In this document: positions 2,217-19,964 of the stretch, piece by piece
How positions within the stretch are numbered: position 1 is the stretch's first letter
Layout of the letters: the number at the start of each line of letters is the position of its first letter
IMG/VR virus record: IMGVR_UViG_3300027631_000160
Location: 1 to 21,240 of that record
Reading direction: 5' to 3' (one strand)
Length of the DNA stretch: 21,240 nucleotides
Source: a virus
Made by a program: the position numbers and the translations under genes
The notes under the pieces: model-generated
What the model saw: only the letters and a program-made list of their open reading frames with translations
Told to the model about the DNA's origin: nothing
The model's database searches: none

Positions 2217-3617
2217 ATGGGACTTTTGGATGTTTTTAGCAGTAAAAAAGTAACAAATAATGAGAGCAACTCGTTGTTTGGTCAGACTGCATTGGGCAAC
2301 AATATTGTTTACCAAAGTAATAAACAGCAGCCAAATGTAAATACCCAGATACTCTATGTCACAACTGCCAGCACTACGAATGCTGGTCGCCCTGTTGACA
2401 TGTCCATGCTCACTCGCAACAGTACAGTGATGTCCTGTATTGCAATTAAGGCTCGTGCGCTTGCACAGTTACCAATTAACATTTGCTGCGAAGGCGAAGA
2501 TGGCGAATATGTAAATGCTATCAAAGACCCGTCAGTTGGAAACCGTGATAAGACAAAAGCAAAGCAAGTTGCCAAGCTTTTGAATAACCCAAATAACTTC
2601 CAGAGCAAATATGAGTTCTGGTATCAGTGGCTCATGTGGTATGAGCTTGCTGGTGAAGCGTTTACTCTGTGGTGGCGTAAAGACCAAGAAAGTGCAACAG
2701 AGACACCTCTGGAAATGTACATCTTGGACAGTACATTGATTGCCGTGACAATTAACCCTGCTCGTTACCCTTCGTACAGACTGTCTACACCGTCTTACGG
2801 TTTTAGCCGTGACCAGCCACTCAAGGCGCATCAAATTATGCACTGCAAAGAGATGGCATGGCAAGGTTCTGCCGGTTTTAACAAAGGTATCTTGGCTGCT
2901 GAGTTGGTTGCCTTGGACCAAGACATTGACCTGTACGCAAACTATGTCATGCAGAACGGTGCGAAGCCATCTGGCATGTTCTCTACTGAAGCAGTAGTTC
3001 CTGATGCCAAATATAAAGAGATTGCAGCCCGTCTGAAGGAAGCTTGGAGCAACATGACAGGCTCACGCCAATCTGACCCATCTAAGCCCGGTCAGGGCAT
3101 GTTGTTGGACCAAGGCATGAAGTACACGCCTTTGGAAATGCTTAACTTGCAAGATGCTGATGCTGCTAACCTAAAGATGCAAACTATGCGCCGTATCTGC
3201 GGCCTGTTTGGTGTGCCTCCGCAGATGCTTGGCATTATTGATGGCAAGTTTAATAACAGCCAGACGCAAATGGATGAGTTCTACAAAGGAACTATGTATC
3301 CAATGCTGGTCAACATCCAAGAAAAGCTTAAGCAGCACCTGTTTACAGGTTATCCATCATTGTGTGTTGAGTTTGACACTAGCGACTTCTTAAAGGGCGC
3401 ACCACTGGACCAAATGAACTTTGCTACAGCCGGTGTGACCAATGGAATTATGACTCCCAACGAAGCGCGTGAATATATGGGCATGCCCAATATTGAAGGC
3501 GGCGATGAATTGGTTCAACCTAATAAACCCGCTGATTCTATTTCTGGTTCTAGCCCTCAAGATACTGGTGGGGGCGGTGGAAGCCAAACTAAGAAAATGA
3601 ATATCGGAAAGACTTGA
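2217..3617 (+). CDS. Portal protein, HK97 family
   Basis: A 466-residue subunit of the dodecameric ring at one capsid vertex through which DNA enters and leaves. Recognisable blocks run in the family order. There is a short basic N-terminus (MGLLDVFSSKK), then STVMSCIAIKARALAQLPI near 69-87, then the NNPNN and FWYQWLMWYELAGEAF region near 123-149. The clip/stem segment follows (MKYTPLEMLNLQDADAANLK, about residues 302-321), with the GVPPQMLG loop and the helix around QTQMDEFYKGTMYPML. A glycine-rich, disordered-looking tail ends the protein. AGGAG a few bases upstream of ATG 2217 is a good ribosome site. It sits between terminase and protease, the standard order. Confidence 0.93.
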   Translation: MGLLDVFSSKKVTNNESNSLFGQTALGNNIVYQSNKQQPNVNTQILYVTTASTTNAGRPVDMSMLTRNSTVMSCIAIKARALAQLPINICCEGEDGEYVNAIKDPSVGNRDKTKAKQVAKLLNNPNNFQSKYEFWYQWLMWYELAGEAFTLWWRKDQESATETPLEMYILDSTLIAVTINPARYPSYRLSTPSYGFSRDQPLKAHQIMHCKEMAWQGSAGFNKGILAAELVALDQDIDLYANYVMQNGAKPSGMFSTEAVVPDAKYKEIAARLKEAWSNMTGSRQSDPSKPGQGMLLDQGMKYTPLEMLNLQDADAANLKMQTMRRICGLFGVPPQMLGIIDGKFNNSQTQMDEFYKGTMYPMLVNIQEKLKQHLFTGYPSLCVEFDTSDFLKGAPLDQMNFATAGVTNGIMTPNEAREYMGMPNIEGGDELVQPNKPADSISGSSPQDTGGGGGSQTKKMNIGKT

Positions 3618-3623
3618 TAAATA

Positions 3624-3839
3624 ATGCAAACTGATTCAAAATATCTGGTAGCATTAGCAAAACAGGTTCATAAACCTGTAATACAGTTGCCTGTTCTTTT
3701 AGGGCGACCCCCTAAAATACAAGATAACAACCAATCTATGGCTTTAGGGGCTATTAATGAAGCAAATGAATCTAATCTGCGAGGCGAAATTAAACCTAAC
3801 GGAAAAAGCCGCAAACGGCGAACCTACAGGAAAGATTGA
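3624..3839 (+). CDS. Possible small protein overlapping the protease gene
   Basis: A 71-residue reading frame starting six bases after the portal stop and overlapping the protease start by 83 bases. The product is basic at its end (KSRKRRTYRKD) and has a VIQLPVLLGRPPKI stretch; I recognise no family. A GGAAAG run ahead of ATG 3624 is a weak, rather distant ribosome site. In favour: otherwise a 139-base gap would interrupt a tightly packed operon. Against: two inverted repeats lie inside it, and most of its overlap with the protease could be chance. It may be a leader peptide whose translation opens the hairpins ahead of the protease gene. Low confidence that it is a real protein. Confidence 0.35.
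   Translation: MQTDSKYLVALAKQVHKPVIQLPVLLGRPPKIQDNNQSMALGAINEANESNLRGEIKPNGKSRKRRTYRKD
3662..3750 (+). promoter_or_regulatory. Candidate RNA switch at the protease ribosome site
   Basis: Two perfect inverted repeats lie between portal and protease: ACAGGTT/AACCTGT (3662-3668 with 3673-3679, 4-base loop) and TTTTAGGG/CCCTAAAA (3697-3704 with 3710-3717, 5-base loop). The right arm of the second can also pair over eight bases (3709-3716, CCCCTAAA) with TTTAGGGG at 3743-3750. That segment contains the AGGGG ribosome site of the protease (ATG 3757). The two pairings exclude each other, so the RNA could shift between an open and a closed ribosome site. The repeats are seen directly; the switching is inference. 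Confidence 0.35.
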
Positions 3840-4539
3840 AGCCCGTATTACCACTTGGGGTCCACGCGAAGGCGCGGATGGTCGCCGTTTTAACTACCGA
3901 CCTGAAGGTTTTATGGATTGGGCCAAAGAATTTGCCTCTTCCGGTAGACCACTACCAATGCATGTTAACCATAATTCTGATGCTATTCCTGTTGGCGAAT
4001 GGACAAGCATTGAGATGGATGACGAAGGCATGAGTGCAAGTGGTCGCTTATTCCTGAATACCACGGCTGGTTCAGACTTGTATCAAGTGATGAGTGAGTC
4101 ACCCAATATGTTTGGTGGTGTCTCTGTTGGCGCTTATGCTGACGAATACCAGATGGTTAATTCTGATGGCGAACCCGACCAATCTGAAGAAGCTTACTTC
4201 CAAATCACTAAAGGTGGTTTGCGCGAGACTAGCGTTGTGATGTACCCAAACAATCCAAAAGCTGAAGTTAGCAAGCTCGAATTCTTTATGGAAGACGGCT
4301 CTGTTGACTTGCGACAATTAGAACAATCTCTGCGAGATGCAGGGGTTTCTAAACAGAATGCGGTTGCTGCTGCTTCTGTATTTAAACAGGTGCTTGAGCA
4401 GCGAGATGCTGTAACAAAGCCTGTTAAAGACGCACCAATTTTGAGAGATTCAGAAGCGGAAGCAACCGAAGCGAAGATTCTTGAAGCTTTAGAGCAAAGA
4501 GAACTTCTTAAACTCCTAGACAAACGACTTAAAGGTTAA
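3757..4539 (+). CDS. Prohead maturation protease (HK97 gp4 / S78-like)
   Basis: A 260-residue serine protease that enters the procapsid, cuts the scaffold-like N-terminus from the capsid protein and then digests itself. Typical signatures are present: GKIEARITTWG near 25-35, the catalytic-histidine segment MHVNHN (H72 likely) followed by PVGEW, then GGVSVGA with S123 as the likely nucleophile. LRETSVVMYPNNPKA at 155-169 is the conserved strand near the active site. Residues after about 180 form a charged helical tail (DLRQLEQSLRDAG..., LEALEQRELLKLLDKRLKG) that could anchor the protease to the capsid scaffold segment. ATG 3757 is preferred over ATG 3766 because AGGGG at 3746-3750 is six bases away. 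The next gene follows by two bases. Confidence 0.88.
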   Translation: MKQMNLICEAKLNLTEKAANGEPTGKIEARITTWGPREGADGRRFNYRPEGFMDWAKEFASSGRPLPMHVNHNSDAIPVGEWTSIEMDDEGMSASGRLFLNTTAGSDLYQVMSESPNMFGGVSVGAYADEYQMVNSDGEPDQSEEAYFQITKGGLRETSVVMYPNNPKAEVSKLEFFMEDGSVDLRQLEQSLRDAGVSKQNAVAAASVFKQVLEQRDAVTKPVKDAPILRDSEAEATEAKILEALEQRELLKLLDKRLKG

Positions 4540-4541
4540 TC

Positions 4542-5885
4542 ATGTCACAAGTAATCCTAGAAAAATTGGACGCAATCGAAGCTAAACAAGCTGAGAGCGT
4601 TGCGGCTGTAGAAGCCAAAATCCCTGCTGCTGTTGAAGCTATCAAAGCTGAATTCAGCGAAATGGTTGCTGCTTTGGAAGCCAAAGTATCTTCTATTGAG
4701 TCTCCATCAATTATCAAAGCTCCTGCTAAGACAATTCGCGGCGATGTAAACCGTTCTGTTAAAGAGCAATTGATTTCTTTCTACAAAGGTAACAGCCGTG
4801 TAGAGAAAGAGTTGCAAATCTTCGCTGACGAATCACAAATGCAAGCCTACCTGAACGAAGCTTCTGCTTTGACTGCTGGTGGTGATGGCAAAGGTGGTCG
4901 TACTGCTTATGACCCAGTGTTTGCTGCACTGCGTTTGGCTAACCCATTGCGCGGTGTTTCACGCACTGTTGCTACTGATGGTTCTTCTTACCAGTTTCGC
5001 GTAAAAACAGGCAACGCTGGCGCTGCTTGGGGTTATGCAATTAACAACAACACATCGGCTACAACTGAAGATACAACAATCTGGCAAATCGTTTTGCAAG
5101 ACTTGAATGTCCAGTTCCCTATCCGTACTGCTGCCCTTGATGACATCGATGGCTTAGAAGCCAATGTCGTTGATGACATGCTTGCCGAATTCGCTCAGGC
5201 AGAAGCTTTGTCCATGATGCAGAATAATGACCAAGGCGCTACTTCTTTGCCATACGGTGGAAGCAACGGTTTGCGTTCATTAGACCAGTACGCCGGTTCT
5301 AACAGCACATACGCTGGTGGTACTTGTACTACTGCTGCTTTCGGCACTTCAGGCACTGGTTCTACCAGCGGCTTGCATAGCTTGGCAACATACGACCAGA
5401 CCACTACTAACGCTAACACTGTTGGCGCTAACAACATCACCTATACCGATGTCGTGAATTTCATTTACCAGTTGCCACAACAGTACTGGACTGCAAACGC
5501 TAAGTTTGTGATTAGCCCAATCTTGTTGAACGCAATTCGTGCATTGAAAGACAACAACGGCGCACCTATCTTCAATCGTAATGAAGGTTTGTCTGTCGAA
5601 GGTATCGTTGGTCAATTGATGGGCTTTGATGTTATTGTGAATAAGTATTGCGATACTCCTTCACAAACATCTACAGGTTCTGCCGGCACTAACAGCTTGT
5701 TCCCAATGTACTTTGCTGATTGGAGCCGCTTCCATACCATCATCGACCGTTTGAACATGGTTATGCGCCGTTATGACCAGACATTGCCCGGTTTCATCAC
5801 CTTCTACGGTGAGAAGCGTTTGGCAACATCTGTTCGTGATCCTAATGCTGGTGTGCGTTATCGCTCAACTGGCACAGCGACCTAA
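4542..5885 (+). CDS. Major capsid protein with N-terminal scaffold (delta) segment
   Basis: A 447-residue HK97-fold capsid protein. Residues 1 to about 55 form an alanine- and glutamate-rich coiled coil (repeats of AAVEAKI, AAVEAIKAE, ALEAKVSS). This is the usual delta domain that acts as built-in scaffold and is removed by the upstream protease; no separate scaffold gene is present, which fits. After a linker the mature domain starts near NEASALTAGGDGKGGRT (105-121). It continues through FPIRTAALDDIDG and MQNNDQGA, and ends with PGFITFYGEKRLATSVRDPNAGV, which I read as the P-domain strand and C-terminus. The exact cleavage point cannot be read, but it should fall before residue 105. AAAGG precedes ATG 4542. 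The following gene is a shorter paralog. Confidence 0.9.
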   Translation: MSQVILEKLDAIEAKQAESVAAVEAKIPAAVEAIKAEFSEMVAALEAKVSSIESPSIIKAPAKTIRGDVNRSVKEQLISFYKGNSRVEKELQIFADESQMQAYLNEASALTAGGDGKGGRTAYDPVFAALRLANPLRGVSRTVATDGSSYQFRVKTGNAGAAWGYAINNNTSATTEDTTIWQIVLQDLNVQFPIRTAALDDIDGLEANVVDDMLAEFAQAEALSMMQNNDQGATSLPYGGSNGLRSLDQYAGSNSTYAGGTCTTAAFGTSGTGSTSGLHSLATYDQTTTNANTVGANNITYTDVVNFIYQLPQQYWTANAKFVISPILLNAIRALKDNNGAPIFNRNEGLSVEGIVGQLMGFDVIVNKYCDTPSQTSTGSAGTNSLFPMYFADWSRFHTIIDRLNMVMRRYDQTLPGFITFYGEKRLATSVRDPNAGVRYRSTGTAT

Positions 5886-5896
5886 TAGTTGCAATC

Positions 5897-5927
5897 AGCG
5901 GGGGGGTAAAATCCCCCGCTTTCTTTT
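5897..5927 (+). terminator. Intrinsic terminator between the two capsid genes
   Basis: Perfect eight-base stem AGCGGGGG (5897-5904) with CCCCCGCT (5913-5920), an eight-base loop and a T-rich tail TTCTTTT (5921-5927). It starts 12 bases after the first capsid stop and ends 11 bases before the second capsid ATG. This is the textbook shape of a rho-independent terminator. Because essential tail genes lie downstream with no obvious new promoter, it is probably partial and lowers downstream transcription relative to the main capsid gene. It might also act as a 3' end that stabilises the capsid message. Confidence 0.75.
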
Positions 5928-5938
5928 AAGGACACACC

Positions 5939-6976
5939 ATGACCATCACTAAAAAAATCTTATCTGCTATTCAAGAAACAATTCAAACAGGTGAAAAAGT
6001 TTCAATTGATTTGCGTGAAGCATCTGCAATCACAGGTTCTGGTGATGGTGTAGGTGGTCGCACATTCTTTGATAACGCTTTTGCTGCTCTGCGTTATGCA
6101 AACCCAATTCGCGAGATGTCGCGTGTTATTCCTGCTGCTGGTTCAAGCGTTCAGTTTGTTGCTAAGACAGGTAATGCGGCAAATCAAACAAACCCCTTTG
6201 GTTACACATTCACTCCTAACAGTGGTACACCAAATACAGACACCTCAATTTGGCAATTGCCAACCCGTGTCATTACAGCGCAACTGCCGATTCGTTCCGC
6301 AGTGATGTCTGATGTAAATTACTTGAACGAAACAATAGTTGAAGACCTGATGTTGGAATTTGCCAATATTGAAGGCGCATCAATGGTTTTAAACAACGAC
6401 CAAGCTGGCTCAACCACTACAGTAAACGGTGCAACCAGCGGTTTGCGTGGCTTGAACATGTATTTAAGCAATTCATCTAGTGCTGCATACGGCACTTCAG
6501 GCACTGCAATCACAAATGGTATTCATACCATCAAGACTGTAACGGCAGCAGCTTCTACGCTTGTTTATGATGATATTGTTAACATTTCTAATGCATTGCC
6601 AGCGCAATATTGGACTTGTCCCGGTGTAGCTTGGATGATGCACCCAACTACTATTCAAAGTTTGCGTAATTTGGGTGTCGCTACTACTGGCGCACTAAAG
6701 CAATTTGCTGAAACAGGCGATGATGATGGTGGCGCTGTTATGAATGTGTTTGGCTTCCCTGTGATTGCCAATCCAAACATATCTCTTAATGCTGCTGGCA
6801 ACTTCTCCATTTATTTGGCTTGTTGGCCTAGATTTGTGACTATTGCTGATGTGGAAGAAATGACCATTCAGGCAATGGAACAAACACAACCCGGCTTTAT
6901 TACTCTGTATGCTGAGAAGCGTCTAGTAAGTACTGTCCGTGACCCATTTGCTGGTGTTCGTTTAGTTAGCGTCTAA
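5939..6976 (+). CDS. Second HK97-fold capsid protein, lacking the delta segment
   Basis: A 345-residue paralog of the preceding capsid protein. Shared blocks run in the same order: REASAITGSGDGVGGRT (26-42) matching NEASALTAGGDGKGGRT; then FAALRYANPIREMSR, LPIRSAVMSD, VLNNDQAGS, SGLRGLNMY, and the end PGFITLYAEKRLVSTVRDPFAGVRL. Only about 25 residues precede the first shared block, against 104 in the first protein, so the coiled-coil delta segment is absent and the protein looks pre-trimmed. Some loop lengths also differ. AAGGA sits just upstream of ATG 5939. By analogy with phages that have special vertex proteins, it could form pentamers or otherwise co-assemble with the major protein; a decoration role or redundancy are alternatives. 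Confidence 0.88.
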   Translation: MTITKKILSAIQETIQTGEKVSIDLREASAITGSGDGVGGRTFFDNAFAALRYANPIREMSRVIPAAGSSVQFVAKTGNAANQTNPFGYTFTPNSGTPNTDTSIWQLPTRVITAQLPIRSAVMSDVNYLNETIVEDLMLEFANIEGASMVLNNDQAGSTTTVNGATSGLRGLNMYLSNSSSAAYGTSGTAITNGIHTIKTVTAAASTLVYDDIVNISNALPAQYWTCPGVAWMMHPTTIQSLRNLGVATTGALKQFAETGDDDGGAVMNVFGFPVIANPNISLNAAGNFSIYLACWPRFVTIADVEEMTIQAMEQTQPGFITLYAEKRLVSTVRDPFAGVRLVSV

Positions 6977-6979
6977 GCC

Positions 6980-7651
6980 ATGAGCGCAGTAGATTATCAA
7001 TACGGTTCGCCTTATTCGGCGCAAACACGCAATCCGTTTAACTATGAGAAGTTTGAACAGATTGACCGGGATAATGTTACGCCTTGGCTTACTCTTGATG
7101 AAATTACTCAGCACATTAATTTGTATCAGGATGAGAGTCAGGACACATATTTAAAAGCCTTAGAACTGGCTACAAGGCAAGCAATTGAGGACTACCTAGG
7201 TCTGAGTATCTTCAGCGTTACTTATCGCGTCTGGTACGGTACATCTAGCCTTGCTGCCTCACCTGTTTGCTTTGACTTGCCTGAAGTTAGTCAGAATCAA
7301 TACTCTGGTCAACCAGAAGTGTATGTTGATTCGCTTGGCTACTGGACTGATGCGTTTCCTCCTGTCTTTACGGCAGTTGCATCAAGCGAATATTACTATG
7401 ATGCTTCCGGCAATAAAGTCATTGTGTCTTCATTGCCAACATCCATTAATACAGTGATGACAGCGCCTATTGTGCTGGAGTACACCACTGTGCCTAATCC
7501 GATTTCAGCCTATCCTGTGATTAAACAGGCTGGACTGTTGTTGTTTACGCACCTGTATAACAATCGTGCAAATGCCACTGAAGTGAAGTTGAAAGACATA
7601 CCTTTTGGCGTGACCACATTGTTAAGAAACTACAAGCCTTTGGTGATGTGA
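6980..7651 (+). CDS. Head-tail connector (phiE125 gp8 / HK97 gp6-like)
   Basis: A 223-residue protein expected to form the ring beneath the portal. Its N-terminal half has the family layout: WLTLDEITQHINLYQDESQDTYLKALELATRQAIEDYLG (about 36-74), a helical bundle with the LxxxALxxAxxxIExYLG pattern. A beta-rich middle follows and the C-terminus is IPFGVTTLLRNYKP, a close match to the 'PFG...LL..YR' ending of these connectors. It is longer than HK97 gp6, as in the phiE125 gp8 group. It starts three bases after the second capsid stop and is followed after one base by the adaptor gene. Confidence 0.82.
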   Translation: MSAVDYQYGSPYSAQTRNPFNYEKFEQIDRDNVTPWLTLDEITQHINLYQDESQDTYLKALELATRQAIEDYLGLSIFSVTYRVWYGTSSLAASPVCFDLPEVSQNQYSGQPEVYVDSLGYWTDAFPPVFTAVASSEYYYDASGNKVIVSSLPTSINTVMTAPIVLEYTTVPNPISAYPVIKQAGLLLFTHLYNNRANATEVKLKDIPFGVTTLLRNYKPLVM

Positions 7652-8453: not shown

Positions 8454-8951
8454 ATGGCTTTACCAAACAAAATTTTGCCGGGTTTTAGTGCTGCGCTATA
8501 TGCTCAACCGGGAACAACTCCAACTCCATTGACATTGACTCAATTGTCTTTGGTCGCCAGCGTTGCACCACTTGCCGTTTCTGGCAATCTGGTTCAAGTT
8601 GAAGCTGTACCAGCTTTTGGTCAGGATGATGCAGTAGCTAACTTTTCAGTCGCTGGTTCACGCCAATCTGACAAGATTCCTACTCAGTCAGCACCTACAT
8701 CAATGACAATTACTGCTGCTTGGAACCCCGGCGATGCAGTGATTAACACATTGTTGCGTGGTGATGCCTACAACGGCGTTACTGACCGCACCTTTGTGAT
8801 TAGCGCAACTGAAGGCACAAACATTGTGTATTACGCTTTTGTTGGTCGCGTGTCTCAATTCACAATTGATGCTGCACCCGGCGCTGAAGCTAAATGCACA
8901 TTTACAGTTCATCCTCGCGGCAACCTATACGGTTGGTGCAACAACGCTTAA
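8454..8951 (+). CDS. Tail tube protein 1
   Basis: A 165-residue beta-sandwich-type protein with a good ribosome site (AAGGAAA) and its own 33-base leader, as expected for an abundant product. It ends with the GRVSQFTIDAAPGAEAKCTF block and an aromatic C-terminus, like the final strands of siphovirus tube proteins, whose rings stack around the tape measure. The next gene is a clear paralog: PAFGQDDAVANF, SRQSDKIPTQSAPTSMTITA, GVTDRTFV and PGAEAKCTFT are common to both. Assignment as tail tube is by position before the chaperone and tape measure genes and by fold pattern, not by a unique motif. Confidence 0.75.
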   Translation: MALPNKILPGFSAALYAQPGTTPTPLTLTQLSLVASVAPLAVSGNLVQVEAVPAFGQDDAVANFSVAGSRQSDKIPTQSAPTSMTITAAWNPGDAVINTLLRGDAYNGVTDRTFVISATEGTNIVYYAFVGRVSQFTIDAAPGAEAKCTFTVHPRGNLYGWCNNA

Positions 8952-8963
8952 AGGAGTATAAAA

Positions 8964-9485
8964 ATGGCAATTCCTAGTCAAGTTCTACCCGGCTTTAGTG
9001 CCGCGCTATGGTTGCAAAATAGCGCCACTCCTACGCCAATTACACCTACTAACCTGTCTGTTTGGGCAGGGCAAGTAGCAACCATTTGCGGTACTGCTGT
9101 TGGCGGTACAGGCGCTGCTGGTCAACAATTGAATGTGGAAGCAGTTCCAGCATTTGGTCAAGATGATGCTGTTGCCAACTTCATGGTTGCTGGCTCACGC
9201 CAATCGGACAAAATCCCAACACAGTCTGCTCCTACCAGCATGACAATCACAGCAGCTTGGAATCCTAGCGATGCCGGCCTGTTGTTGATTCGTGGTGATG
9301 CGTCTAATGGTGTAACGGACCGTACTTTTGTTGTGACCGCTTCTACAAGCGCAACCAGCACTATTGCTTATGCATTTAATGGTCGCGTAAGTCAATTTAC
9401 GATTGATGCGGCTCCCGGTGCTGAAGCTAAGTGTACTTTCACTATTCACCCAAGGGGCAACCAATACGGTTGGTCTAACCCATGA
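8964..9485 (+). CDS. Tail tube protein 2 (paralog of tube protein 1)
   Basis: A 173-residue paralog of the 8454 product, preceded by a strong AAAGGAG site, so it should be well translated. The C-terminal two thirds are nearly the same as in tube protein 1, while residues 10-50 differ and carry an insertion (VGGTGAAGQQ). Within a shared 24-residue block (SRQSDKIP through AAWNP), 14 of 24 codons differ without changing the amino acid, including TCA against AGC for one serine. The duplication is therefore old and both copies have been kept under strong purifying selection. It may mix with tube protein 1 in the rings, or form a distinct segment such as the tube end. It overlaps the next gene by four bases. 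Confidence 0.75.
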   Translation: MAIPSQVLPGFSAALWLQNSATPTPITPTNLSVWAGQVATICGTAVGGTGAAGQQLNVEAVPAFGQDDAVANFMVAGSRQSDKIPTQSAPTSMTITAAWNPSDAGLLLIRGDASNGVTDRTFVVTASTSATSTIAYAFNGRVSQFTIDAAPGAEAKCTFTIHPRGNQYGWSNP

Positions 9486-15326: not shown

Positions 15327-18300
15327 ATGGTTGGAACATTAATCGTTGCAGCAGCGGCTGGAACCACAGCAGCGGGTGTTGCAGCGTCTTTCGCATTAAC
15401 TGCTGCGGCCTTTGCTGTTAATTTTGCGGTGTCAATGATTGTCACTAGGATGTTTGGTGACAATCCTGAAAATCAACAAGACATGGGTGTGCGCCAGCAA
15501 GTGCCACCAAGCTCTGTCAATGCCATTCCTATCGTCTATGGCGATGCCTCTATGGGCGGTACATTTGTTGATGCGGTGCTGACAACAGACCAAAAGACAA
15601 TGTATTATGTATTGGCTATTTCTAGCATCAGTTCTGCCAATGCAGCATTAGGTACAAGTGCTGGCATATTAAATTACGACACGACAAAAATGTATTATGG
15701 CGACCGCCTAATTACTTTTGACGGAACAGACCTAACCAAAGTTGTTAGCCTGACAGACGAAGCTGGCAATGTCGATACTAAGATTAGTGGCAATCTTTAT
15801 ATTAATCTTTACAAGTCTTCAAGTGCTGGCGTAATTACATCTACGAATGGAGCCGCAGCACCTAGTACAGTAATGGGCGGCTCTGACATTGCTGTTGGTC
15901 AAAGATGGACAGGCACAAGGCAGATGAACAATTTGGCGTTTGCCATTGTTAAACTTGTCTATAACCGTGATGCCGATACAACTCAACTTAGCCCAATTAC
16001 ATTTAATATAAGCCACTATCCAAATGGCGCAAGCGTTGCAAAGCCCGGTGATGTTTGGCTTGATTACATTACCAACCAAGAGTATGGCGGTGCTGTAGGC
16101 TGGCTACCTGATGGCTCATTTAGTGCCTCCTTTGTGGATACAACTTGTGTTGCACCATTAAACACTTATTCTGACCAAACAATCAGTTACACGCCGGCTG
16201 GTGGTGGCGCTTCCGTCACTCAGGCCCGTTACCGTATTAATGGCGTATTGGATGCCGGTCAATCAGTTCTAAGTAATCTTGACCGCATTATGTCTGCCTG
16301 TGATTCATGGATGACATACAACGCTGCTTTGGGTCAGTGGTCTGTAGTTATTAATAAAGCAGAAACAACTGCCTATGCATTTAATGATGACAATATTATT
16401 GGTGAAATTCGCGTCAGTGCTACAGACATTACTTCTTCTATTAATCAAGTAGAGGCAAGGTTTCCATTTAAATCAAATCGTGACCAAGCTGCGTTTGTTA
16501 ACTTGGAAACTCCTTACGCTTTGCTTTATCCAAATGAGCCGGTTAACAAGTATTCCATTACTTATGACTTGGTTAATGATTCTGTGCAAGCGCAATACCT
16601 TGCCAATCGTTTGCTTGAGCAAGCCCGTGAGGATTTGATTGTCAGCTTCAGTACAACATACTACGGCATTCAAGTTGATGCCGGTACTGTTGTTAGTGTT
16701 ACCAATGCTGACTACGGATGGACTAATAAGTTGTTCCGTGTGATGAAAGTAAACGAAGCTTCATTGCCTGATGGCTCTCTTGGCGCAAAGCTTGAACTCA
16801 ATGAGTACAACGCACAAGTCTATGATGATGCAAGCATTACTCAGTTTACACCGGCTCCTAATTCTGGACTGCCATCAGTAAGCTACTTTTCGCCACTAGC
16901 TGCTCCTACAGTTACTGGTTTTCCAACAGCGACTATTCCATATATTGATGTTCAGGTATTTATTCCGACAACAGGCCGTGTTACTTTTGGTAGTTTGTTT
17001 TGGACAACTAGCGCAACTCCAACATCAACCGATTGGAAATTGGTTACAACGGCTACAACAACAAACAATGAACCTGTCACAAACGGAACCTATTACACAT
17101 TTGCCAACATTACATTAAACACTGGCACTTACTATTTTGCCTACAATGTTGGTAATGACATAACTACTTCCATATTAAGCCCAATCAGTGCGGCTCTTGT
17201 TTGGAACCCTGTTACAGGGGCTGGTGCTACAGGCCCAACTGGACCAACGGGAATTACTGGTGCAACTGGTTCAGGAATCAATACAGCTACTGTTTATTTG
17301 TATAACAAAAACACAACAACAACACCCCCTGCGTTGTTTAGCGGAACTTTTACATACACATTTGCAACTGGAATTTTAAGTGGCGGTACATTAAACGGAT
17401 GGGCGCAAACACCGCCATCAATAGCGGCGGGTGAGTTTTTGTTTTTGTCATTAGCTACAGCGTCAAGCTCATCTGCTACAGATACAATTCCAACAGCGGA
17501 ATTTTCAACGCCGGAAGTTATTAGTGGCACAGGAACAAATGGGACAAATGGCGCTAATACTGCAATTGTTTCGTTGTTTAACAAAAACACTAGCGCAGTA
17601 ACACCCCCGACAACATTCAGCGGAACATTTACTTATACATTTTCAACAGCCGTATTAAGCGGTGGAACATTGAATAGTTGGTCGCAATCTGTTCCTAACC
17701 TTGCATCAGGCGAATATTTATGGCAACGACAAGCGACCGCATTTTCAAGCGCGGCAACAGATACGATTGCGGCAACTGAATTTAGTAGCGCAGTAGTAGT
17801 TGGTGCGGCGGGTGCAACTGGCGCGACAGGCGGTAGCGGTGATTCTGTAGATATTGTTTTTAAGCGTTCAGCAACGCAACCCGCGACACCCTCGCCATCA
17901 ATAGGAACGCCCGCAACATGGTATTCTGATATCAATTCAGTACCCGCAGGGTCTGACCCAATTTGGTCAGCAATTGGAACAAATACTGGAACTGGTACAA
18001 ATTACACATGGCAAACACCAGTTTTAATTGAAGGTCAAAACGGAACAGATGGGTTATCTGTAGCTGAACTTTTAATTTATATTAGGGCTACATCTACACC
18101 GGCTACACCAACCGGAGGTAGTTATAACTTCACAACTCAAACATTAACTGCACCGTCTGGTTGGTATTCTTATGTGCCTACAGGAACAGACCCAGTTTAT
18201 ACATCACGAAGCGTAGCATCCATAACGGGTACAACCGGCATAGATTCTGTTTTAACTTGGACTGCTCCAACGCTTAGTTTTCAAAACGGAGTTACAGGAC

Positions 18301-19964
18301 CTACTGGAGTTACAGGATCAACAGGACCAACTGGAGCAAGTATTACAGGTCCCACAGGACAAACTGGATACCAAGTCGCTCGCCCTGCGGTTTACCAATG
18401 GGGGTTATCAACTCCTTCTATTTCAGGTGCATCAACATATTATTGGTCATCAGGTATTTATGCTGGTCCCGGAGGTGGATGGTCAACAACAATTACAGCA
18501 GCGCCAAGTGCGGGATTTATTCTTTATACCGCAACCGCAACTGTTACTGATTTAGCAACTGCAACAAGTACAGCATTTAGTTGGACAACAGCAAGTATTG
18601 TTGTTTCAGGATATGCCGGAACAAATGGCGCTACAGGACCAACAGGCGGCGCGGGTGTGACAGGACCTACAGGCGGGTCAGGTGCATCCTCAAGAATTAT
18701 GTTTGCTCGAATTGCAAGCAATCCTGTGCCGGTATCAGGAACAGTAACAGTAGCGGGTGACAATCGACCAACAGGCGCAGAAGGTGGCGCAGTTTGGGGC
18801 GCGGCATTTAATGTGACATGGTACGCCAATGACCCTGATCCATCTAGCAACAACTCTTTATATCAAGCCGATGGTATTTATAATAGCTATACAACCTCTT
18901 GGTCAACGCCTTATATTTCTGCATTAAAAGTTGGCGCGCTGTCCGCTGTTTCTACTAACACTGGAAGCTTAACGGTTAGTGGAACTTTGCAATCTAACAC
19001 CGCCACAATCAGTGGCACAACCATGACCGGTTCGGGTGGTGTACTCTATGCAAGCGGAAATTTTGCGTTTGGTAATAGCACTACAAACATTACATACAAC
19101 GGTGCAACAATTACTTTGAATGGTCAAGTTGTTGCGGCATCCAATTTGAATGTTGCTAATTTGCAAGCTGTTTCTGCAAATACTGGGAGTTTGACTGTTA
19201 GTGGAACTATGACTGCGGGAACTGCTGCAATTAGCGGTTCAACTTTTAGTGGCTCCGGTGTTGTTATTTACAGTACAGGAAAATTTGGTGCTGGCAATAC
19301 AACTAATAACATTGTTTGGGACAATTCATCTTTAAACATTAAAGGCGATATAAGTGGCGCATCAAATGTTGAAATCACCGGTAAATTATCTTTAACAGGA
19401 AGTGGTAATGTAATTTCTGGTTATTCTGTAAGCCAATACATATATAGCTCTGCTACTTATGCTTGTATTTATGCAAATAACACAGCTAATGCACCAGCGG
19501 CAACTTTTTATACCGGCAATTCAAGAACTATTTATGCCCAGAACATTGCAACATTTAGCGGTAACTCAGCAATAGTTGGAGACAACCTTGGTAACGGTCC
19601 GGGTGTGCAAGCCACTTCTAATACAGGAACTGCTTTAATTGCTTATTCGTCTTCAGGTGGTGCATTTAATTGTCAAGGCACAATGGCGATTACAAGCAGC
19701 ACTTTGGTTACAAACTTAAATGCAAATTATTTGCAGGGTAATCTTGCAAGTGCCTTTGTAACAAGCACTTCAGGAGATGCTTATTCTGCAAATAGATTAA
19801 ATGGTTCTGCGGGTACAAATGTATTAAGATTTGTTCAAGGAACTGTTTCAGGAGCAGCAACAGCAAATTTTGTTGGAACAAACAAACCCGGAAGTACATC
19901 ATCAAATGTTTGGATTGAAATAACAATTGATGGGTCAACCTTTTACATTCCCGTATGGAGTTAA
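15327..19964 (+). CDS. J-like tail tip protein fused to a collagen-linked fibre
   Basis: A 1545-residue receptor-recognition protein. Residues 1-45 are alanine-rich and hydrophobic, resembling a membrane-inserting segment; about 55-510 match the lambda gpJ hub region (PPSSVNAIPIVYGDA..., RINGVLDAGQSVLSNLDRIMSACDSWM, DAGTVVSVTNADYG). A fibronectin-like domain is at about 529-625. Then come modules split by collagen-like Gly-X-Y runs: near 630-650; a tandem pair of about 88-residue domains (651-740 and 742-828, each starting xNTAxVxLxNKNT); further domains; and longer GPTG runs near 988-1015 and 1098-1120. About 1200-1345 holds two copies of a VSxNTGSLTVSGT repeat, like the J C-terminal domain. 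The final 200 residues end in WIEITIDGSTFYIPVWS, probably the tip. AAGGA precedes ATG 15327. Confidence 0.9.
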   Translation: MVGTLIVAAAAGTTAAGVAASFALTAAAFAVNFAVSMIVTRMFGDNPENQQDMGVRQQVPPSSVNAIPIVYGDASMGGTFVDAVLTTDQKTMYYVLAISSISSANAALGTSAGILNYDTTKMYYGDRLITFDGTDLTKVVSLTDEAGNVDTKISGNLYINLYKSSSAGVITSTNGAAAPSTVMGGSDIAVGQRWTGTRQMNNLAFAIVKLVYNRDADTTQLSPITFNISHYPNGASVAKPGDVWLDYITNQEYGGAVGWLPDGSFSASFVDTTCVAPLNTYSDQTISYTPAGGGASVTQARYRINGVLDAGQSVLSNLDRIMSACDSWMTYNAALGQWSVVINKAETTAYAFNDDNIIGEIRVSATDITSSINQVEARFPFKSNRDQAAFVNLETPYALLYPNEPVNKYSITYDLVNDSVQAQYLANRLLEQAREDLIVSFSTTYYGIQVDAGTVVSVTNADYGWTNKLFRVMKVNEASLPDGSLGAKLELNEYNAQVYDDASITQFTPAPNSGLPSVSYFSPLAAPTVTGFPTATIPYIDVQVFIPTTGRVTFGSLFWTTSATPTSTDWKLVTTATTTNNEPVTNGTYYTFANITLNTGTYYFAYNVGNDITTSILSPISAALVWNPVTGAGATGPTGPTGITGATGSGINTATVYLYNKNTTTTPPALFSGTFTYTFATGILSGGTLNGWAQTPPSIAAGEFLFLSLATASSSSATDTIPTAEFSTPEVISGTGTNGTNGANTAIVSLFNKNTSAVTPPTTFSGTFTYTFSTAVLSGGTLNSWSQSVPNLASGEYLWQRQATAFSSAATDTIAATEFSSAVVVGAAGATGATGGSGDSVDIVFKRSATQPATPSPSIGTPATWYSDINSVPAGSDPIWSAIGTNTGTGTNYTWQTPVLIEGQNGTDGLSVAELLIYIRATSTPATPTGGSYNFTTQTLTAPSGWYSYVPTGTDPVYTSRSVASITGTTGIDSVLTWTAPTLSFQNGVTGPTGVTGSTGPTGASITGPTGQTGYQVARPAVYQWGLSTPSISGASTYYWSSGIYAGPGGGWSTTITAAPSAGFILYTATATVTDLATATSTAFSWTTASIVVSGYAGTNGATGPTGGAGVTGPTGGSGASSRIMFARIASNPVPVSGTVTVAGDNRPTGAEGGAVWGAAFNVTWYANDPDPSSNNSLYQADGIYNSYTTSWSTPYISALKVGALSAVSTNTGSLTVSGTLQSNTATISGTTMTGSGGVLYASGNFAFGNSTTNITYNGATITLNGQVVAASNLNVANLQAVSANTGSLTVSGTMTAGTAAISGSTFSGSGVVIYSTGKFGAGNTTNNIVWDNSSLNIKGDISGASNVEITGKLSLTGSGNVISGYSVSQYIYSSATYACIYANNTANAPAATFYTGNSRTIYAQNIATFSGNSAIVGDNLGNGPGVQATSNTGTALIAYSSSGGAFNCQGTMAITSSTLVTNLNANYLQGNLASAFVTSTSGDAYSANRLNGSAGTNVLRFVQGTVSGAATANFVGTNKPGSTSSNVWIEITIDGSTFYIPVWS
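17278..17810 (+). repeat. Tandem duplicated fibre domain (two copies)
   Basis: Two copies of an 88-90 residue module lie head to tail, separated by a short GTNGTNG linker. Shared text includes LxNKNT, TPPxxFSGTFTYTF, LSGGTLN, and then ATDTI and EFSxxxV. Many synonymous bases differ (for example TTTAGCGGAACTTTTACATA against TTCAGCGGAACATTTACTTA), so it is not a recent duplication. Confidence 0.8.

Follow-up and report, generated by a model that had tools for sequence, protein, structure and literature searches.

In nearly all HK97-fold shells one protein serves both the pentamers and the hexamers, and a phage that carries two HK97-family capsid genes side by side raises the question of what the second is for. 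Such a pair lies in a contig of 21,240 bases from IMG/VR (hereafter the window), the first 7.7 kb of which form a standard HK97-type head module with tail genes downstream. The module runs in the usual order from TerL (513-2192) and portal (2217-3617) through an S78-type prohead protease (3757..4539, + strand; PF04586, E 3e-9; PHROG head maturation protease) to a 447-aa major capsid protein of the HK97 family with an N-terminal delta segment (MCP; 4542..5885, + strand; PF05065, E 1e-30) and a head-tail connector/adaptor (6980..7651, + strand; PF05135, E 8e-6; PHROG adaptor, E 1e-11). Between the last two lies a second capsid gene encoding a 345-aa HK97-family paralog of MCP (PAR; 5939..6976, + strand; PF05065, E 2e-19), and in relatives whose contigs extend that far synteny likewise places the connector directly after PAR. 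The tail genes hold a tandem pair of their own, two tail-tube proteins (8454-8951 and 8964-9485) that share 69% identity and are almost the same in their second halves, this pair being variable with two copies in 87 and one copy in 72 of the loci with enough sequence. At 15327-19964 a 1545-aa tail-tip or host-specificity-like protein with several collagen-like GPTGPTG stretches is encoded.

Relationship between the two capsid proteins

The two genes are on the same strand, separated by a spacer of 53 nt, and both products score well above the curated PF05065 cut-off of 24.2 bits (MCP 107.5 bits, PAR 70.7 bits) and match the PHROG major head protein. BLASTP aligns them collinearly with 41% identity over 345 columns (E 4e-76), profile-profile comparison gives a probability of 100%, and a Pfam search of PAR returned no capsid family except PF05065, with DUF4325 as a chance match (E up to 1). 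In the alignment MCP residue 104 pairs with PAR residue 25, which puts the start of PAR 79 residues further in, and nothing in PAR matches the coiled-coil stretch at the MCP N-terminus. The original prediction of two tandem HK97 capsid genes with collinear blocks, the second starting about 80 residues later and lacking the coiled-coil delta segment, is thereby borne out with exact coordinates, and on these comparisons MCP and PAR are HK97-family paralogs. AlphaFold2 models built on the PAR and MCP alignments reached a pLDDT of 36 and 39, too low for a structure search.

Distribution and history of the gene pair

With PAR as query, viral contigs yielded 316 stretches encoding relatives, some of the fetched loci being overlapping cuts of one contig. 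MCP lies upstream of PAR in every fetched locus with enough sequence, and where one partner is missing the contig ends inside or beside the missing gene; no locus with PAR or MCP alone was found among those long enough to show both. Both genes are intact at full length in 235 loci (173 after removal of near-copies). At one locus (L182, 5821-6752) the PAR match falls in two pieces with about 30 residues missing, which may be a frameshift, a deletion or an assembly error. Among 50,697 phage records the sole match below 1e-5 was the cultured Methylophilaceae phage P19250A (KX815270), which has the gene order of the window and both capsid proteins, MCP being 61% identical to its capsid protein and PAR 55% identical to a product annotated "hypothetical protein". 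A scan of a genome collection recovered six loci only, all in metagenome-assembled bins. The pairing of MCP and PAR is not accidental, being universal in the group across hundreds of environmental phage contigs, and its carriers are a widespread group of freshwater phages. The possibility that the pair is confined to one assembly and decayed elsewhere is excluded, as all relatives long enough carry it.

P19250A and several of the contigs have a size of about 38-39 kb. The same pair was also found in a contig of 75,987 bases (L232), twice the usual size, which may come from a phage with a larger genome, from a prophage region or from an assembly that doubled the sequence. Two candidate relatives were rejected: Venkman (L306, MT375522), published as P19250A-like, has a scaffold-type podovirus head module and no related MCP, and MEP301 is described with a podovirus-type head.

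The pair is under purifying selection, the median dN/dS being 0.09 for PAR and 0.10 for MCP. In a quick tree of MCP and PAR with four other HK97-type MCPs as distant outgroup, the PAR sequences all fall to one side of a branch with SH-aLRT support of 98, and MCP and PAR together are split from the other HK97 MCPs with support of 100; the outgroup branches are very long, leaving the position of the root unsure. The MCP and PAR sequences of all lineages, P19250A included, group by type and not by phage, which argues for a single old duplication before the group diversified. No ancestral single-copy state was found, the nearest other MCPs being marginal matches (E 0.3 or worse). The two trees conflict in places, with the PAR of the window joining that of L056 (94% identity, the MCPs of the two being 81% identical) and its MCP joining that of L025. 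This disagreement indicates that PAR moves between phages, even where their MCPs share no more than about 80% identity.

A terminator-like hairpin between MCP and PAR

The spacer contains an intrinsic-terminator-like hairpin and T run (5897..5927, + strand; AGCGGGGGG-GTAAAA-TCCCCCGCT then TTCTTTT) followed by a ribosome-binding-site-like AAGGA (5928..5932, + strand). This hairpin is the first-listed terminator-like site of the 20 kb scanned and has the most G-C pairs. With strict settings a hairpin and T run were detected in 103 of 106 short-spacer loci and in none of the controls (0/530 shuffles, 0/246 other head-gene junctions and 0/530 coding stretches), and with looser settings a hairpin was detected in 171 of 173 loci, the controls having been run with the strict settings only. 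The stem is preserved while its sequence changes: 53 different stem pairs occur among the 106 loci, six of nine stem pairs in a 20-sequence alignment are changed on both sides, and none of the 500 shuffles or of the slid versions reaches the covariation score of the stem. An Rfam search of the window gave no match. The distance from the end of the stem to the PAR ATG is 18-32 nt, which leaves no room for a separate PAR promoter. PAR and the later genes should therefore depend on read-through with PAR in the minority, and the hairpin predicts less PAR than MCP.

A hairpin is also present in the spacer of P19250A, as well as after the MCP gene of SfIV and Marilyn, each of which has one MCP gene in the stretch compared. 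A terminator after MCP is thus not peculiar to this group, and the relevant point is the place of PAR behind it. In three loci an open reading frame recognised by eye as GIY-YIG-like and of homing-endonuclease type is inserted in the spacer immediately downstream of the hairpin (L164 7295-7987, L166 5815-6528 and L096 5339-6004), PAR being intact in all three.

Segment lengths and variation

Across the 173 MCP/PAR pairs, with domain limits taken from HK97, the median lengths of three segments are equal in the two proteins (N-arm and start of the E-loop 46, spine 47 and C-terminal P-domain 40 residues), and the E-loop has a median of 29 residues in MCP and 32 in PAR (+3). The axial region is about 26 residues shorter in PAR (median 148, MCP 174) and the ranges of the two proteins do not overlap. 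In the window the shortened region of PAR, which is also its most variable, covers residues about 152-302 (6392..6844, + strand; limits again from HK97). Within it residues 196-280 are the most variable and the least correlated with MCP distances (rho 0.14-0.19), the correlation rising back to 0.29 toward the C-terminus of PAR even though this lies farther from the MCP gene. Residues 321-360 of MCP are variable as well. On these domain limits the segments that contact neighbouring capsomers appear to have been kept and the segment round the capsomer's own axis trimmed and varied, as would be expected if PAR makes its own capsomers. The contrast between domains is one of degree, the correlation being modest over most of PAR and complicated by recombination.

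The N-terminus and a shared motif at the expected cleavage site

The MCP of HK97 is cleaved between residues 103 and 104. In the window, the delta-like scaffold segment of MCP covers residues 1 to about 108 (4542..4865, + strand), the boundary being placed by comparison with HK97, and has no counterpart in PAR apart from its last part. Residues 2-50 of MCP form a predicted helix, the part with the highest score in a model that is poor elsewhere; PAR does not have this helix. At the expected cleavage point both proteins carry motifs of the EASALTGSG..GG type, namely EASALTAGGDGKGG at MCP residues 106-119 (4857..4898, + strand) and EASAITGSGDGVGG at PAR residues 27-40 (6017..6058, + strand), where putative cleavage would fall. 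When each MCP was compared with its own and with shuffled PAR partners, the top excess similarity was found between MCP 106-125 and PAR 27-46 (z 6.2, the next peak being 4.2); in P19250A, for example, both proteins have AGLQGSG. A shared protease would explain this likeness, but it could also stem from gene conversion or from binding in a common groove. Besides HK97, RcGTA serves as a guide to where a mature MCP should start: its capsid subunits at the portal are described with N-termini from residue 99 (PMC7296036), which corresponds to about residue 115 of MCP in a sequence alignment.

In PAR, about 29 residues precede the shared EAS(A/I)LT.G..G.GG motif, and this short N-terminal extension (residues 1-29; 5939..6025, + strand) is conserved across relatives with I7, L8, I11 and G18 invariant, making it a possible propeptide. 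The suggestion that PAR is made as if already matured needs some correction, in that PAR lacks the delta segment but does not start at the expected mature N-terminus, about 29 residues standing before the motif. The further suggestion that it is an unprocessed partner is weakened by the extension and by an MCP-like motif at the expected protease site.

Comparison with other two-component shells

T4 gp23 and gp24 are, as MCP and PAR are predicted to be, two HK97-fold paralogs in one phage, with gp24 forming pentamers in 55 copies (PMC5694885), and PAR resembles gp24 in being a paralog of the MCP of its own genome (41% identity, single duplication). The systems differ in that gp23 and gp24 both have N-terminal propeptides cut by gp21, whereas here a long delta segment is found in MCP only, the genome is small and of siphophage type (about 38-39 kb) and a terminator lies between the two genes. 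PAR falls outside the T4 gp24 sequence family, with no match to T4-type capsid families in Pfam, and judged by sequence its origin is separate from that of gp24 and lies in a duplication inside this group. A second parallel is offered by the two-component Family 2B encapsulins of Streptomyces lydicus, whose two HK97-fold shell proteins share an operon and co-assemble (PMC12407261). In contrast to PAR, whose neighbours in a phage head module include portal, protease and connector genes, these are non-viral and tile in a mixed irregular manner, and no cargo enzyme of an encapsulin operon accompanies MCP and PAR, which are flanked by phage head and tail genes. The best solved relative by sequence is the RcGTA MCP (Rcc01687; E 5e-9 and 4e-4 for the two proteins), although the pentamers and the hexamers of RcGTA are made of one and the same MCP (PMC7296036). 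According to a 2025 paper, T4 is the only virus in which separate roles fall to two HK97-fold proteins (PMC12407261), and in the open-licence literature searched no other tandem HK97 MCP paralogs were found beyond T4 and the encapsulins.

The role of PAR

The evidence leans slightly towards PAR being a dedicated penton (vertex) protein with MCP forming the hexamers. The original prediction that the capsid paralogs may have specialised, for which T4 gp24 is the closest model, is supported at this strength by the universality of the pair, selection, the old duplication, the terminator and the change in the axial domain. PAR would then be present in the virion as pentamers at the vertices, and a T=7 head would hold eleven of them, or about 55 copies, with 360 copies of MCP in hexamers; by analogy with HK97, T=7 would suit genomes of about 38-39 kb. 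The delta scaffold of MCP would drive procapsid assembly before being cut off by the S78 protease, and PAR, having no delta of its own, would join by way of the N-arm, E-loop and P-domain contacts that MCP uses, its processing probably being limited to removal of the stub of about 29 residues at the shared motif. The terminator behind MCP would set the dosage, with PAR and the connector and tail genes made by read-through. If the axial domains touch other copies of PAR only, one would expect what is seen in residues 196-280 of PAR, namely the greatest variability and the weakest tie to MCP. In the RcGTA shell, a subunit adopts a different conformation in pentamers than in hexamers, and the axial domains serve as the binding site for the vertex spikes (PMC7296036). 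There are counterpoints, in that the terminator may simply follow MCP as in SfIV and Marilyn and would reduce the output of every gene behind it along with PAR, and the axial domain may vary under a pressure that would act on any exposed part.

The equal length of the contact-making segments would also suit a mixed shell of the kind known from the S. lydicus encapsulins (PMC12407261), in which PAR co-assembles with MCP in hexamers or takes fixed positions of a larger asymmetric unit. This is rather unlikely, as a subunit within an MCP hexamer should be tied to MCP in the axial region, precisely where PAR is consistently shorter and least correlated with MCP; PAR is moreover exchanged between phages, and the terminator predicts it to be in the minority. 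A low dosage, the lack of a delta segment and the position of the gene between MCP and connector in all relatives would fit PAR as a ring at the portal vertex, or as a factor in assembly or size determination that occurs in few copies or disappears from the mature head. Against such a role, which we regard as distinctly improbable, stands a body of full HK97 length with the N-arm, E-loop and P-domain segments kept, suggesting a full shell position, and no precedent was found in the literature searched.

The exchange of PAR between lineages might suggest a protein that works outside the same shell, either as an alternative capsid protein, used when a second type of head is built or another host infected, or as a decoy. 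The absence of any locus with PAR or MCP alone makes this very doubtful, and PAR without a delta segment would need another scaffold to build heads of its own. There is next to no chance that PAR is a decaying or neutral duplicate, a reading refuted by a dN/dS of 0.09, by conservation with both genes intact in 235 loci and by the age of the duplication; the split PAR of L182, which might favour it, could also be an assembly error.

Significance

Whether the group represents a second, independent case of a dedicated HK97-fold penton, one that has dropped its own scaffold, uses that of MCP and has its ratio set by a terminator, in small freshwater phages, is in our judgement evenly balanced. If true, a second lineage beside T4 would have split the pentamer and hexamer roles, in small phages with a cultured member, and the question of why a phage splits the roles of its shell would become directly testable. 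The entry of a scaffold-less paralog into the procapsid and the tuning of shell stoichiometry by a terminator would likewise be open to test, and a function is suggested for a "hypothetical" gene carried by hundreds of environmental phage contigs.
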